The notes under the pieces were generated by a model that was not told the origin of the DNA, did no database searches, and saw only the letters and a program-made list of their open reading frames with translations. The translations under genes and the position numbers were made by a program. Below, piece by piece: positions 44,396 through 59,366 of a stretch of DNA of 64,000 nt. This stretch comes from Cliona cf. orientalis (taxonomy: Eukaryota; Porifera; Demospongiae; Clionaida; Clionaidae): positions 33,837,235-33,901,234 of the forward strand of contig OZ005689.1 of assembly GCA_963930775.1 (NCBI GenBank), in the 5' to 3' direction. Position 1 is the first letter of the stretch. Every line of letters begins with the position of its first letter.

Positions 44396-44814
44396 ACTAA
44401 CAGCTAGTCCAGGGACTGAATACCAAACCGTACAGTGCACTTTAATAAGATACCAACACAGACATGAGCCCGCGTGGCAGTACGCGTGTGCGCGTGCGCA
44501 CGGAATTCCAAATTCCGTACCTGGTACCCGTACGGTACGGCGTGTTCAAACGGACTCTAAATCCACAGTATGCACGAGTATGGCGTTTCCGCATACTACG
44601 CTTGACCTGGGCGGAGCCGTTCGAAATGAACGTAAAGATCGAGCAAGGGTTGAATTTCGTTGTTCACAACGACAGCCGATTGTTCTTAGATGCCCAAGAA
44701 GCTAAAAAGGTGAGCGAACGTACAGTAGATCAATGAATCTAGCTGGATCTAGGTAGAGAATTCTAACTAGTGCCCATAGCAATGGGCTCCGTGGGTCAGA
44801 TAGACAGTTGCATA

Positions 44815-44945
44815 AAATAAGGAAAAACTCCATGGGTTACTCTAGGGATTGAATTATGCAAGCATTCCCTTGGGTTACTGTAGGAGATGCAAACGGCACC
44901 TTGAGTTACTCTAGGGATGGAATTATGCAAGGTATATTTTGTATA
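44815..44945. repeat. Short tandem-like repeat, three units
   Basis: GGGTTACTCTAGGGATTGAA then TTATGCAAG recurs three times with variation (about 44835, 44873, 44900). No gene is seen from here to 45330, which is AT-rich. Confidence 0.7.
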
Positions 44946-45333
44946 AATCATGGATAATACTATAATATGGGAAGGAATCATGCAAAACTCATCTACCGAG
45001 TAAAACTTCTAATTTATGCTTGAATTATCTATGAATATCATTATCTGTTCTAAAACAGCATGGGCAGTTGGATTGAGTTTTAGATTAGCTACTTGAAATT
45101 ATTTTCTCTAAAGAAAGTTTAATGTTAAATTTTTGTTATAGCTAGCTCTTGTGTTACAGGTATTATGCTTTTACTGAAAGTGTGCTATAATCATAATTAT
45201 ATATAACCTTTATGGCAGCATTTTTTTATACAACAATAATCATTAATCAACTGCAGCATAAAAAATGATGATGAATCAATTGATTAAATATAAGATCATT
45301 AATAAGATTTAGTAATAATCAGGTGATAAAGTT

Positions 45334-48300
45334 TTAGGTTGACTTTATGCCTAGTTGTTTGTGGAATACGATGTCATCGCCTTCTTGTGATGGGTTAATA
45401 TAAACTGTCTGACCATCCGAAGGGAAAAATGTACCATATTTACCAGTTTTAGGATCAAAATGAAGAATCTGTCCATTAAACCATTCATACTTTCCTGTTT
45501 CTTTAATCTTAAACCTCATATGTAGCTTACGTCCTAGGTATTTGGGATTAGGCTGATGAAAACTGGTGTCTGCAAAATCATCCATATCGGAGTCTTCACC
45601 TGTCTCAGGAATAACTGTCACAATTTTTGGTCGCTTTGTATTTTCACTCGTACTTATTGAACTCTTCCTCTTTTTTCCACCAGTTTCAAAGTGACATTGA
45701 CGATCAGGGGGTCCATTTTGTGAGGTCAGATCACTTGCTGTATTTTTTTTGTCTTCTCATATTTCTTTTCGCTGCTTCCGATTTCCTTGCTTCCTGACTT
45801 TGATCACAGTATGTCACTGATACTCCTTGTCTAGCAGCAATGTTTTTAGCACACGCTGCTTTATCATACTTGTACAAATTCGCTACAGCTATCTGCAGCT
45901 GTTGGGATAGAGACTCTTTGCTGTCTAAATTTTTCCTCTCCACAGCATTAGTGTTTGAAGGACAGCGTTGCCAGATTGCTTCATCCATTTCAGAATAATC
46001 CTTATGCAGCAGTTTAAGGTGCTGTGGCCGCATCCACCACTCAACCCACTTGGTTGCAGGTGACCAATTTGTACTGGAATCTATAAACATGGCATCATCT
46101 TTCGTAAGTCCTTCAATGACATCTAGTAGAGTATTTGCCGATTTCTTCTTACACAGGACTTCAAAAGCTATCATAATGTTGTTTCCAGCAGAAATTTTTG
46201 GAATTCGAGAAGCTATAGATGCAAATAATTCCTTCTCACGTACCTTATCCTTTGTGGTAGCAACACGGTCCCTAACTCGTTGCCATGACCTTGTCCAGTA
46301 GACCTTGCATCCTTCCAATCAACAGCAATGCCCAACAAGCTTGTTCCTAGTTCAAAGTCATTGTTGGAATGTTTACACTTATTGAATGTTTTAGAGTATG
46401 CTAAGCTGTAAGCAGAAGTATCTTGTTTAGTCATTCTGACACGGCTTACTACCACCCAGTCCATGGTTATGTAGCTGAATGCCACCATATTAAACAAACA
46501 AGGGTATTCTCGAGTCTCATTAGAAGTAATATCTGCCTCAACAAACTCTGATTCTGCTAGGAGTGAAGACATGAACGGACTCATGCAGAAAACGAAGTTA
46601 ATGCCATCCTCTATCCCAGCAGATACTAAATATGGCGTTGTAAGGCCTTTTAGTTGAACTGAATCAACCGTATCACCAGTTAACTCTTCATCTTTAGAAT
46701 CTGTCATTTGCTACATCTTCAAATTTTGCTATATCCCAGTTTGAACCAGCTGCAGTGTGATTCTTGGATTTTCTGACTTCTCGTGCAATCCTCCCCATGT
46801 GATTACTTGCCTTGTCAATAGCTCCAGGTATTGCATTTACTCCTTTACCTCTGGCAACGTCCCTGGGTTTTATACTGGGATTGGGTTCAGTGGCATCAGC
46901 AATCATTTGATTGACTTTGGAGCAAATTTTTGATGAGCTATGTATAGGATGATTGTGAAGTGAATCACAGGCACCTTTTTGATGTCTTACAAAGGCAAAT
47001 ATCCACCGTCTTATCTGAAGCATCTTTAGGATACAGATATGCAAACTGAACAGGGCAAGGTGCTTTGTCATTACTTTTGACCAGCTTGAAATTGTTGTGG
47101 ATGCTACAGGGTCTTTGAGCTGATATTGGTGCAGCATAATCACATGATTCATCAGGACACACTTTAACACCATTACATGAAGCAATCCTATACATCAACG
47201 TTTCTGTTTTATCTGATAGCAGAACATCTACTTCTCTGTCCTTGTTCCAGCCACTCTTAGTTATCTGAATATCATCCCATAGGTAGTGTGGGTTAGCAGT
47301 GCTTTGTGGAAGTTGAGTGCAGTCTGGAGTATAAAATGTACAGCTGATGAAAAGACTCCAGGAAATTGATAATCACTTTTCTTTGTAATAGTTTCCCAGT
47401 TTTCTTCGTCTTCGATGAGTCTCTTTATGGTGGCTATTCCATGACTTCCCTTACCTGTGCGCAGAGTTTTCTTTCCTGATTTCATTTGTATTGGGAGTTG
47501 TGCTCTATTGGAGCTGCTACTAGATACAGATTCTGTACTTACTATGTCATCTGTTGTGTTCATGGGTACCATAAATTTTTCGCCACTCTCTAGTAAAGTC
47601 TCTCCTTCGCTTATCTTACAAATAATACCCTGAATCCCATAGTGCTGGCTTTGTTTGATAATTGATTTAAGTTCCTTCTTTACAACTCCAAGGACATGGC
47701 ACTTTCGTATGAATAGCCGCCACCACTTTTCACTGTGACCCTGAGAATTTCCATATGATATGCATGATTTATTGTATGCATTAGTCCAAGCCAATCCATT
47801 ATTCACTGAGTAATCTTTAGCTCTCCTTTTTGATCCTAGTGTTTGTACTGCATCATACAGAATTCGTAACTCTTCAGTAAGGTCATGATCAGCCTCTGTC
47901 GATTCTGCTGTAAGTTCACACACGTCACAACAATTAGGATGTTTTACCATATCCTTGATGTCTTCACCAGAGAGCTTTCGAAGACATAATCTTCGACACT
48001 GATTGACTATATTTGACATAACATACTTCCATGACTCTGAAAATTCATTTAGGACCATTGAACAATGCTCCTGATTACCAAGGTGCCCCTTTATCTATGC
48101 ATTGCCATGATCTATATTTGTGGTACTATAAAAAATGGTTGCTTGTGCTGGATTTCCATCCCTTCCTGCACGCCCGAGTTCCTGAGCCCAACTGCATATG
48201 TTCTCGGGAACGCCATAACGGATTATGTGGCGAATATTGGGCTTGTTGATACCCATTCCAAATGCACTAGTAGCCACCATAACACTAACATCTCCATTCC

Positions 48301-48801
48301 TCCATCTGTCAAAACTCTCATTTCTGGATCTGATATCCATTTCTCCATAGTATGCAACTGAATCAATGCCATAATTACTTTCAGGTGTCACCAGCATCAC
48401 TGTCTCCAGAAAGAACATGTTCTTCCAACTGAAGGTCTAGTTGAGCAGAACCAAGATATGCAGCCTTGATCCCATATGTTTCACAATTCTTAACATGATC
48501 GTGCGTAAGACTTATTGTGGGTGTGATGACTACTGAGATTTTGTTTTGATGTACTGCAGGAAATTGAAAACAATCATTTACCGCTCCCGGTAGGTTAAAC
48601 TACTAAGCAATCCTGACCAGCTAAGAGAGCTGTGATAACTTCCTTCTGATATTTTCTGAACCTTGTCAAATTAAACTTTTCTGCAAGAGTCATAATCATG
48701 GAGGCTTCCATAAACGCTTGACTGGTATTAGGCGAGTCAGTGATATCATCATCATCCCAAGGATCATCACTCGGTCTATCAGTGTGGCCAGTACTTGTCA
48801 T
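45334..48801 (-). pseudogene. RecQ helicase fused to a MULE-type transposase with Tudor-like tail (decayed)
   Basis: From the ATG at 48801 the minus strand reads an acidic start, F-R-K-Y-Q-K-E-V-I (helicase motif 0), then Walker A P-T-G-S-G-K just after a TAA. A frameshift leads to T-S-A-F-G-M-G-I-N-K-P-N-I-R and Q-E-L-G-R-A-G-R-D-G (motifs V and VI). Next is a RecQ zinc region (C-R-R-L-C-L-R-K, C-C-D-V-C) and a winged-helix-like stretch. One frame change near 47330 leads into a transposase: C-P-V-Q-F-A-Y-L-Y, H-N-H-P-I-H, G-A-I-D-K-A-S-N-H. Candidate catalytic residues lie in E-A-D-I-T-S-N-E-T, A-V-D-W-K-D-A and T-N-A-V-E-R-K-N. The tail (45621-45334) has F-F-P-S-D-G-Q-T-V-Y, Tudor-like. No introns are needed; about five lesions. 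The fusion is inferred from the continuous coding sequence. Confidence 0.75.
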
Positions 48802-48924
48802 TGGTTCAGGAAGGGAAGCGGACTGACATATTTGAATTCGTGGGTATTAGCTAGGGGTTGAGCATATAGATATCAATATTCTAGTGTAGAAGACATGATC
48901 CGGCAGGCAATATGTATAGGTTAT

Positions 48925-49054
48925 TGCCCTAAGCCGAGGCTCTACGGCGTTTTAGAAACCCGAGGGATGTTGCATAATCGCCGAGGGCGGAGCCCGTGGC
49001 GATCATGCAACATCCTGAGTGGTTTCTAATAGCCGTAGAGCCGAGGCGTGGGCG
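48925..49054. repeat. Foldback structure with about 55-bp arms
   Basis: GCCGAGGCTCTACGGC (48933) through GGATGTTGCATAATCGCC pairs with GGCGATCATGCAACATCC through GCCGTAGAGCCGAGGC. The small loop (GAGGGCGGAGCCCG) is itself palindromic. It lies 120 bp upstream of the RecQ-MULE start codon. Confidence 0.85.
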
Positions 49055-49940: not shown

Positions 49941-50360
49941 ATGGTAGAAACAAGTATAAAAAACAATGTAGTTGAAGGATGAAGTAGGGATGGCAGGGTC
50001 AAAAAGTACACCAACAAGATTTGTAGGGATAATCACATCCACTATACATCCCTACGCTTGCTTTTCTCGATTATGCATCTGTTGATGGTCCATTGGTGCT
50101 AGCTATCCTTAATTCGAATCTTCTGTAATATGTGTGGGAGAAATTCATCATTCTTATCTACATGTACTGTATACTCGGGGGATAACTAGGTTTGGTTGTC
50201 GCATTCCTGCCTGATTAGTTAATTCCTGCACCAACTCAAAAAGCAAGCGTAGGGATGTATAGTGGATGTGATTATCCCTACAAATCTTGTTTGTGTACTT
50301 TTTGACCCTGCCATCCCTACTTCATCCTTCAATTACATTGTTTTTTATACTTGTTTCCAT
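49941..50360. repeat. Large inverted repeat, arms about 120 bp
   Basis: 49941-50065 (ATGGTAGAAACAAGTATAAA through AGGGATGGCAGGGTCAAAAA to CCCTACGCTTGCTTTT) is matched in inverse orientation by 50238-50360 with few differences. A spacer of about 170 bp separates the arms. A further inverted copy of the outer part (49916-49981) is at 50675-50738. Confidence 0.9.
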
Positions 50361-56859: not shown

Positions 56860-59366
56860 GTTATGCAAAAGGCATATATCTTGAAGATGACAATAGAGAA
56901 ATGAAGATATTGAGAGAGCCAGCTATTGTTGTAGCAACTGAGACAGATTAAGCCCTGTTTGATGCATTTCAACTAGTGTTTCCTAGTGCTGTTCACTTAC
57001 TGTGTTCATTGCACATAAAAAGGAATGTGAAGGCCAAACTAAAAGAGCTTGGTGTCGGAGAGCACATCCAGCAGGTAGTGATAGAAGATATTTTTTGAAA
57101 GCAATTCGATTCGCAGCATATTGAGGGGCTTATTGATTGCTGTGATGATGAGCAGTTTGAAGAAGGGCTAGAAGCTCTTTCAGAAAAGTGGAAAACCTGA
57201 CATGCCTGATAATGTCCAAAAGCCTCTTCATGTATTTGGAATGTGGTTTAAACAGTACAAAAGCTCTTTGCAGAAGAAAAAGATGCTAAAACCTGTTCAC
57301 ACAAAAGCTGGTCTAGAGAGTCTGCCACTGCAGTTTACCACGAATGCTAGAGAAAGTATGAACACAGTCCTTACAAGGAAAGTTGATTATAAGAGTGAAT
57401 TACCTGCATTTCTGGGTGAGCTAAGAAAAGTCATAACATGAATTAGAGAGCTGTCATCAACAAGGGCAAGTGTCAGTTATATGTTCAATACAGAAACTCG
57501 GAGATCCTTGAAGATCACTCGCTCATGAATGTGTGACCGTCTCTGAGAAAACCTGGCATATTTGTGAAAGTTGAGTTTTGTTTTATGTATGGTTGATAAG
57601 CTCTACCATAGAGCTAACCCGCGTTCATGTTTCAGACCCACTGTGCGCTTGGTTGTGTAGATAGAGCGCTTTGTTTGCGATCGCGCCATACCCGGGTACA
57701 AAGGCGTTGCTATGCACACGTATGGCGTTTCTGCATACTATCTGTGACCCGGAAATCAATTAAATGGACCTGGGCGGAGCCGTTCGAAATCACCGTAAAG
57801 ATCAAGAAAGAGTTGAATTTTGTTGTTGACAACGACAGCCGATTGTTCTTCGATGCCCAAGAAACTGTTTGATGAATCTAGCTGTATCTAGGGAAGAGAA
57901 TTCTAATTAGCGCCCATAGCAGTAACTGTATAGACTAGGTAGGTCAAAGTAAGGCCTATTTCGCCTAGCCTCTGTAGACGGCGGCAAAGGTTAGTAGAAA
58001 GGTTCTTTGGCACGAAACTCAACTTTGACATTTTTGGACTTGAGGTACTAAAAAGTGCATTGCGCGACTAGCATGCGGATCCCATATGCCGGGTTTTGTC
58101 AGATACGGTCATATATGTCTCTAGCTCAGGGAATCACACAATAAAAAGGCTTTATCGGTACAAGTTGGATCTAAAATAGCTGCTCCCGGACTCAGTGTTG
58201 CATTAAGACATATATTGATCACTCTAGCAAGCCTTCCTGTAGTCGACAGTTGTTTCCATAGTCTCTGCCAAGTGAAAGACTGCTGTCAATTGATGTTGGC
58301 CAATTTTGTGATTCAGTCCTTATCCCATGCTCGGTACTAAATGCTATTTAAAGAAAGGCAATGAACTGCTAGGGGATAGCAACTCCATTTGCACAGTTCC
58401 AGGCGGTAGCTCAAAGGATCGTATGGTCAAAAGCAGCTCAGGTCCCAGACCACATGTTGTTACTGCAAAGAAAACCGGACAGTATGTGTGCGATGGACAG
58501 TGCCCAAACTGGAAGTCGTTGAAGGTGTGCTCTCATACAGTTGCAGCTGCTGAGGATAATCATGATCTTGATGTATTCATTCAGTGGTTAAAGAAAGCCC
58601 AAAAGTCCCAAATATGACAGAACTAGTCACCACAAATATGCCAAAAGGCCGGGGGCGAAAAGCATGTGCACCACCCAAAAAGAGATCCAAGAGAGTCCAT
58701 ATTGATACACACAAAACATTCAGTGAAGTTTTGCAAGAACAAACATCCAATCAGATTGCATTCGATGAAGACAGCGACAGTGGTACTGAGCTTTCAGTTT
58801 CGGCTGGCAGTACTGCTGTTATTCAAAATATTTCATATGCTAGTGGTGGGGATGTTCAGTCTTCAACTACAAGAGTGGGCACAGGTATGGGACAGCATCA
58901 CCATAGCCAACAGGGAGCGTGGAACTAACACACACTGCTGCCGGTGCTAGTACAAGAATCACCGTAACTGGTGCGACTCGGTCAAGAGTCAAGCCGTCTC
59001 CGTCCACTTCCTCCACCACTTGTTCACTGCCCATTATTGTCTCCTCAATCAGATAGCCCTTTTGAACTAGTTAGTGGAAACATTAGTGTTTGCAGGGGCT
59101 GTATACAGAGATATCCAAAGCCATCTTATCCCCCTATGGACCTTTGTGTTCGTCATAAGGGTTGGCAGAAGTTTGATGACCCATGTGATCAGCAATCATG
59201 TTACGGAAACGTTTATTATCACTGTAATAGTCCTTGTATCCGGTCACGCTGCCCCAATTTTCAACCCCAAATATTGGATATTTACTCAATAGCAATGCAG
59301 CTTTCACCTGTGCATACCGAGTATTTGATAAAGCAAATACCAGAGGTTCGATCATTAATTTGCTAA
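56860..59366 (+). pseudogene. MULE transposase with SWIM finger, decayed and split
   Basis: The plus strand reads A-L-F-D-A-F-Q-L-V-F-P-S, H-L-L-C-S-L-H-I-K-R-N-V-K-A-K-L, then (57202-57441) H-V-F-G-M-W-F-K-Q-Y and F-T-T-N-A-R-E-S-M-N. A family A MITE (57532-58113) interrupts it. After that come V-C-D-G-Q-C-P-N-W-K-S-L and V-C-S-H-T-V-A-A-A (58477-58550), a SWIM-type C-x-C-x(n)-C-x-H finger, and a basic region G-R-G-R-K-A-C-A-P-P-K-K-R. The last frame (58971-59366) has C-R-G-C-I-Q-R-Y, D-L-C-V-R-H-K-G-W and G-N-V-Y-Y-H-C-N. Stops lie near 56951, 57098 and 57199, with several frame changes. The first catalytic region is degraded; no TIRs were found. Confidence 0.8.
57532..58113. mobile_element. 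Family A MITE copy 6 (582 bp), inside the MULE gene
   Basis: TGTGACCGTCTCTGAGAAAA at 57532 and the diverged inverted end GTCAGATACGGTCATA at 58113 are the termini. It keeps the uninterrupted site GGCGTTGCTATGCACACG used to prove the insertion in copy 3, and the conserved W-A-E-P-F-E-I-T-V-K-I frame (57770-57870, plus strand). Confidence 0.8.

Follow-up and report, generated by a model that had tools for sequence, protein, structure and literature searches.

Predicted fusion of a RecQ helicase, a transposase core and a Tudor-like tail, behind a ubiquitin-like leader, in DNA transposons of the sponge Cliona cf. orientalis

As read from the DNA, a fusion of RecQ helicase, transposase core and Tudor-like tail is general in the genome of Cliona cf. 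orientalis and conserved in five families of DNA transposons, one of which has left a remnant in the window analysed here (the whole stretch of 64,000 nt). Complete relatives of this remnant very probably encode a single protein in which a ubiquitin-like domain ending in Gly-Gly is followed by a B-box, the RecQ helicase, a DNA-binding-like Cys/His region, an RNase H-like DDE core with a C..H motif, and a Tudor/Agenet-like tail. In kind the fusion has precedents, the helicase-bearing transposons AcademH and KolobokH being already known; the initial annotation, which knew of no described RecQ–MULE fusion, thus holds for a MULE named as such but not for helicase-bearing transposons as a kind. What appears new, within the literature searched, is the ubiquitin-like Gly-Gly/B-box leader together with the Tudor-like tail. 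No ubiquitin-like/RecQ/transposase element was present among the matches listed in our literature searches, which is not proof of absence given that Repbase and most subscription papers lay outside their scope, and the accessible portions of PMC3985635 and PMC12730594 contain nothing on such a fusion.

The remnant occupies 44794–48835 of the window on the minus strand and belongs to a 5′-truncated, helicase-bearing element of family A, as determined by blastn against four other loci of that family (L033, L043, L044 and L045), whose main pieces align at 90–97 % identity and end at 44793/44794 and 48835. The extent originally given, 45334–48801, was therefore too short and omitted the 3′ terminal inverted repeat (TIR). 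The coding part of this copy is made up of nine adjoining or overlapping minus-strand frames, running from 48846 to 45334, in which RecQ motifs, a Cys/His region, transposase-core motifs and a Tudor-like tail follow one another in that order. These pieces are collinear with the unbroken ORF of L033 at 70–94 % identity, and the frame breaks are accordingly lesions rather than gene borders, as had been proposed at the outset. Approximately 445 bp, including the DEAH box (L033 3487–3931), is absent at 48395/48380; the 3′ TIR is kept, whilst the 5′ TIR and the upstream coding exons, which specify the ubiquitin-like/B-box leader, are lost. Judged by its sequence, the window copy is a dead, 5′-deleted and frameshifted TIR DNA transposon. 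Its 3′ TIR (44794–45055, minus strand) terminates in GACC on the minus strand (GGTC on the plus), is matched in inverted orientation by the 5′ TIRs of the same four loci over 44808–45055 at about 82 %, and was recovered over 232 bp at 80 % in a genome TIR search. The 9-mer flanking this terminus, GGCTCCGTG, occurs only once within the window, and its duplication partner has therefore been lost. Just past the 5′ truncation point, at 48928–49052, lies a 61-bp, hairpin-like palindrome of 72 % identity.

Within the remnant (all features on the minus strand), an N-terminal RecQ piece reaching motif I (48595–48846; 92 % to L033) is continued in another frame by a piece carrying the Walker A sequence PTGSGK at 48577–48594 (48381–48599; weak Pfam DEAD match, E 0.0072), whose DEAH part falls in the deletion. 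The helicase C-lobe (48095–48436; Helicase_C, 2.2e-17) contains GMGINKPNIR at 48230–48259 and QELGRAGRDG at 48155–48184, and is followed by the RecQ zinc-binding and RQC-like region with a linker (47261–48094; 88 % to L033), where the zinc Cys run NCCDVCE is found at 47915–47935. Between helicase and transposase core, two overlapping frames (46694–47372) encode a Cys/His-rich region (C..C..C..H, HNHP) whose Cys and His residues are invariant in seven aligned sequences from five families. A search for solved relatives of this region returned none, with one chance match, and its matches to Pfam EIN3_DNA-bd (0.008 in the window, best 0.031 in two of seven sequences) were likewise set aside as chance. 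The first half of the transposase core (46213–46710) contains the first and second predicted catalytic Asp (EADIT, 46525–46539; AVDW, 46315–46326), and the second half (45731–46318) the C..H motif and the predicted catalytic Glu (GCKV, 46301–46312; TNAVERKN, 45929–45952); in this copy the C..H motif has Tyr in place of its conserved His (GCKVYW). The Tudor/Agenet-like tail (45334–45756; EWFNGQ at 45469–45486) is 92 % identical to that of L033, and weak Pfam Royal-family matches are found to it across relatives.

Using two translations from the window, one of the RecQ C-terminal region and one of the transposase core, we searched the whole 216.8-Mb genome, and the resulting counts are lower bounds. 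With the former we obtained at least 32 matches at at least 25 loci, and with the latter at least 47 matches at at least 33 loci. At all 25 RecQ loci found, a transposase core lay downstream on the same strand, at a spacing of 632–769 bp in 23 cases and of 943 and 1480 bp in the other two; eight of the 33 core loci were without a RecQ C-region match, these being short partial matches, some without stops. Eighteen loci were fetched at length (L033–L050), and in five of them RecQ, core and tail are contained in a single ORF, of 1358 aa in L033, 1329 aa in each of L034, L035 and L036, and 1310 aa in L037. A further locus, L046, was left out of this count, as it is open in six frames over 4 kb because 3832 of its bases read N. 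A nested insertion that joined helicase and transposase merely by accident might be suspected from the window copy alone, broken as it is into nine frames; since all 25 RecQ loci show this join and five copies hold it in a single ORF, this explanation was rejected and retains virtually no probability. The halves do not occur independently at the RecQ loci, nor is the junction peculiar to this locus, and the original reading of RecQ, transposase core and Tudor-like tail as one unit is confirmed by the order of motifs on the minus strand and by the relatives that keep one ORF.

Grouping L033–L050 by DNA identity gave the five families: A (L033, L043–L046 and the window copy), B (L034–L036), C (L037–L040 and L047), D (L041 and L049) and E (L042, L048 and L050). 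Protein pieces of families B–E share 33–46 % with the family-A protein of L033. Another divergent group seems to be formed by the loci at C7:6.24 Mb and C9:3.83 Mb. Candidate relatives in other material were confirmed for none of 56 pattern matches in viral contigs and none of 93 in prokaryote contigs.

The elements end in GGTC...GACC in families A, B, C and E, with the exception of L045, which starts with GATC. Among the 12 copies with both ends, ten (L034–L040, L043, L044 and L050) are flanked by exact 9-bp target duplications of varied sequence, and two (L033 and L045) have none; the TIRs and 9-bp duplications anticipated by the initial annotation are thus present around relatives. One or both ends are absent from the sequence examined for L041, L042 and L046–L049, and for family D neither TIRs nor termini were found in its copies L041 and L049. 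TIRs measure 395 bp at 96 % identity in family B, about 260–290 bp in A and about 280 bp at 80 % in E. Two family-B elements are 9523 and 9488 bp long, and the ORFs of the three copies of approximately 9.5 kb differ by only 1, 3 and 4 nt over 3987 nt, from which it follows that family B has moved recently. The genome TIR searches also returned paired terminal repeats about 0.9–3.4 kb apart, likely to be non-autonomous derivatives; those with a spacing of approximately 2.9 kb, at C13:3051006–3053881, C19:4380554–4383421 and C5:11380770–11383700, are likely non-autonomous relatives mobilized in trans.

With respect to the helicase, the closest solved relatives of the L034 RecQ part are WRN (9.8e-70), followed by bacterial RecQ and RECQ1 (about 1e-63 to 1e-60). 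L033 exceeds the Pfam cut-off for both DEAD (2e-26) and Helicase_C (2.5e-18), RecQ_Zn_bind (8.6e-5, L034) and RQC (0.0014, L033) fall below it, and Walker A, DEAH and the GMGI motif are kept in the reference proteins of families B and C. Extra 'RecQ' or 'WRN-like' genes in the genome annotations of animals with such elements may in fact be transposons. Clusters of repeated DEAD-helicase ORFs, of up to 832 aa on C11, occur at C11:6.94–7.01 Mb and C3:9.92–10.30 Mb; as far as compared these are not of this RecQ family, the RecQ part matching L005 at 25 % and L006–L008 not at all.

The transposase core is conserved in its two Asp residues, the C..H motif and the Glu of an N..ER sequence, with the single exception of L049, where Glu is replaced by Gln; the first Asp sits in DxTY, and GCxVH is invariant between the second Asp and the Glu in all seven sequences. 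As the solved-structure search returned no relative of the core, its assignment to a fold rests on these motifs. The core had initially been called MULE-like, a term with weak support, since Transposase_mut matches one of seven sequences at 0.0033, below cut-off, and MULE two of seven at 0.086. The elements might have no relation to AcademH and form their own RecQ-bearing lineage within the MuDR/Mutator superclass, which we regard as possible yet short of an even chance. They share with MuDR/Mutator the C..H motif, the DxTY and N..ER signatures, long TIRs and 9-bp duplications, and an hhalign comparison of the core with three MULE proteins encoded in this genome paired both Asp residues and the C..H motif at E 0.011, although with a probability of 3.9 %. 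Furthermore, none of 112 genome matches to the MULE model falls on the cores of these elements, and a plain MULE is thus not supported by profile; in contrast to MuDR/Mutator, the Cliona element also carries RecQ, ubiquitin-like and B-box parts, and a word search of the MULE surveys PMC6446971 and PMC13359780 found neither helicase nor RecQ nor ubiquitin. One MULE-model match (C7:1330794–1331099, an 858-aa frame) does lie between the TIRs of an element, on the other strand; the element is a family-C copy with TIRs 16 kb apart (C7:1324196–1340645), and the match is probably a nested MULE.

For the tail, the earlier description as Tudor-like receives moderate support from matches to the MORC2 chromo-like domain (3.7e-6), Agenet (5.8e-4) and the PTM/DIR17 Tudor (9.7e-4), each in one or two of nine sequences, alongside matches to unrelated models at 0.01–0.2. 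Compared with solved structures, the tail profile gave eight rows, the top five of which are chance matches to WD40 repeats.

Several known transposons bear comparison with these elements. AcademH, the Academ DNA transposons with a helicase, was reportedly described by Kojima in 2020; the nuclease of AcademX is of the XPG type; and Helitrons have neither TIRs nor target duplications. Helitron was rejected in view of the TIRs and 9-bp duplications of the Cliona elements, and AcademX in view of PF00867 (XPG_I), which gave four genome matches in frames of 34–104 aa, none at an element locus. KolobokH is similar in that it is a RecQ-carrying DDD/E transposon whose superfamily has a C/DxxH motif (PMC9587614, in the part available). 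However, as that part has it, KolobokH duplicates TTAA (4 bp) and places RecQ downstream of the transposase, whereas the Cliona element makes varied 9-bp duplications and has RecQ upstream of the core, and identity with KolobokH was rejected for these two reasons.

AcademH likewise is a DNA transposon that encodes a helicase, and it produces 9–10-bp duplications, as against 3–4 bp in AcademX, a difference related to helicase versus nuclease in the available text of PMC10045372; the 9 bp found here are within that range. DEAD and Helicase_C, both present in the Cliona element, are named in the accessible part of PMC10799480 as transposon domains, fungal helicase domains being traced there to AcademH, KolobokH or Helitron. 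We therefore lean slightly towards an ordinary AcademH transposon, in which the ubiquitin-like, B-box and Tudor-like parts would be local decoration or an unreported trait of AcademH. The likeness is one of description, and the differences are judged in the same way from citing descriptions (the AcademH paper is cited in the visible parts of PMC8290104 and PMC12210899): the Cliona element has a ubiquitin-like Gly-Gly leader, a B-box and a Tudor-like tail, and its core has a C..H motif, which these partial descriptions do not list for Academ. Helicase–DDE fusions could show why some duplications are of 9–10 bp and others of 3–4 bp, along the lines of the link proposed for AcademH and AcademX (PMC10045372, part seen).

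Upstream of RecQ, we found in all five families a ubiquitin-like domain ending in Gly-Gly together with a B-box zinc finger. A five-family profile of the former aligned with single ubiquitin chains over residues 2–76, to the Gly-Gly, at about 2e-13 to 1e-12, and PF00240 (ubiquitin) was matched by five of five family members in the profile comparison; taken singly, family C exceeds the cut-off, while A (4.5e-4), D (0.013) and E (0.022) stay below it. The Gly-Gly is invariant, family A ending in LRGG and B–E reading KGxGG. The B-box exceeds the Pfam cut-off in A and E, is just short of it in D, and rests on alignment in B and C. Families B–E are predicted to have a GT-AG intron of 59–93 bp in phase 1 between leader and B-box, and a second, of 60–1481 bp in phase 0, after the B-box. 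In B, C and E the RecQ frame follows this second intron directly; family D has an extra small exon between B-box and RecQ, and its joining is incomplete. Family A is intronless in this part, and a single 272-aa ORF of L045 spans the ubiquitin-like domain and what follows, up to and including helicase motif I. With start codons chosen and splicing predicted, the full protein would be 1478 aa in family B and 1459 aa in family C, or about 1460–1480 aa. L033, whose ORF is the longest among the family-A copies, has an insertion of approximately 785 bp (L033:2211–2996) that separates the leader from RecQ.

Two genome searches with the leader gave matches at 20 of the 25 loci and just one elsewhere (29 residues, 1.6e-4), so that the leader belongs to the element; no host parent gene was found in these searches. 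One of the 20, a divergent element at C9:3.827–3.831 Mb (C9:3.83 Mb), has its ubiquitin-like/B-box part on the strand opposite to RecQ and transposase, perhaps owing to a local inversion. Beyond the leader, the upstream open frames contain no convincing cross-family protein, and the upstream matches between B and C look like shared non-coding repeat DNA. It might be argued that the ubiquitin-like/B-box unit is a separate protein of the element, unjoined to the helicase, as it has its own exons in families B–E, the joining is predicted from DNA and the second intron of family B spans 1481 bp. Splice sites and phase are nevertheless conserved in four families, and family A reads through in a single intronless ORF; we consider separation improbable and retain the reading of leader, helicase and transposase as one protein.

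The mechanism that we infer from this domain order is as follows. The DDE core would cleave at the GGTC termini and insert them into target DNA at positions staggered by 9 bp; RecQ, held within the complex, would act as a motor that unwinds the transposon ends or the gapped product of strand transfer; and the Tudor-like tail may steer target choice or chromatin contact. The part in repair and chromatin targeting proposed in the initial annotation is likewise hypothetical. The ubiquitin-like leader may act through its Gly-Gly tail, being cut off by host deubiquitinases as in the ubiquitin-ribosomal protein fusions eL40 and eS31, which are among its solved matches and in which an N-terminal ubiquitin fold ending in Gly-Gly likewise precedes another protein; alternatively, it may stay uncut as a docking domain. 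In contrast to eL40/eS31, the cargo here is a helicase–transposase, only family A has LRGG as against KGxGG in B–E, and cleavage is hypothetical. The residues that follow the Gly-Gly vary among families, one of which has Pro after GGG, and this speaks against a uniform deubiquitinase cut. It is a tentative suggestion, which we are inclined to doubt, that the RecQ-transposase is translated behind a leader that host ubiquitin machinery cleaves or uses, tying the release of the transposase, its dose or its delivery to repair sites to ubiquitin signalling. The combination of domains may couple transposition both to the unwinding of DNA and to ubiquitin pathways of the cell, and the conserved ubiquitin-like Gly-Gly leader with its B-box would be a new transposon route to host ubiquitin pathways.

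Two further features were seen in the window outside the remnant. At 49947–50357 there is a MITE-like element with 119-bp inverted arms at 98 % identity and 173 bp between them, and at 56901–57026 (C1:33894135–33894260) a weak match to the MULE model, at 0.0437, is found on the plus strand.
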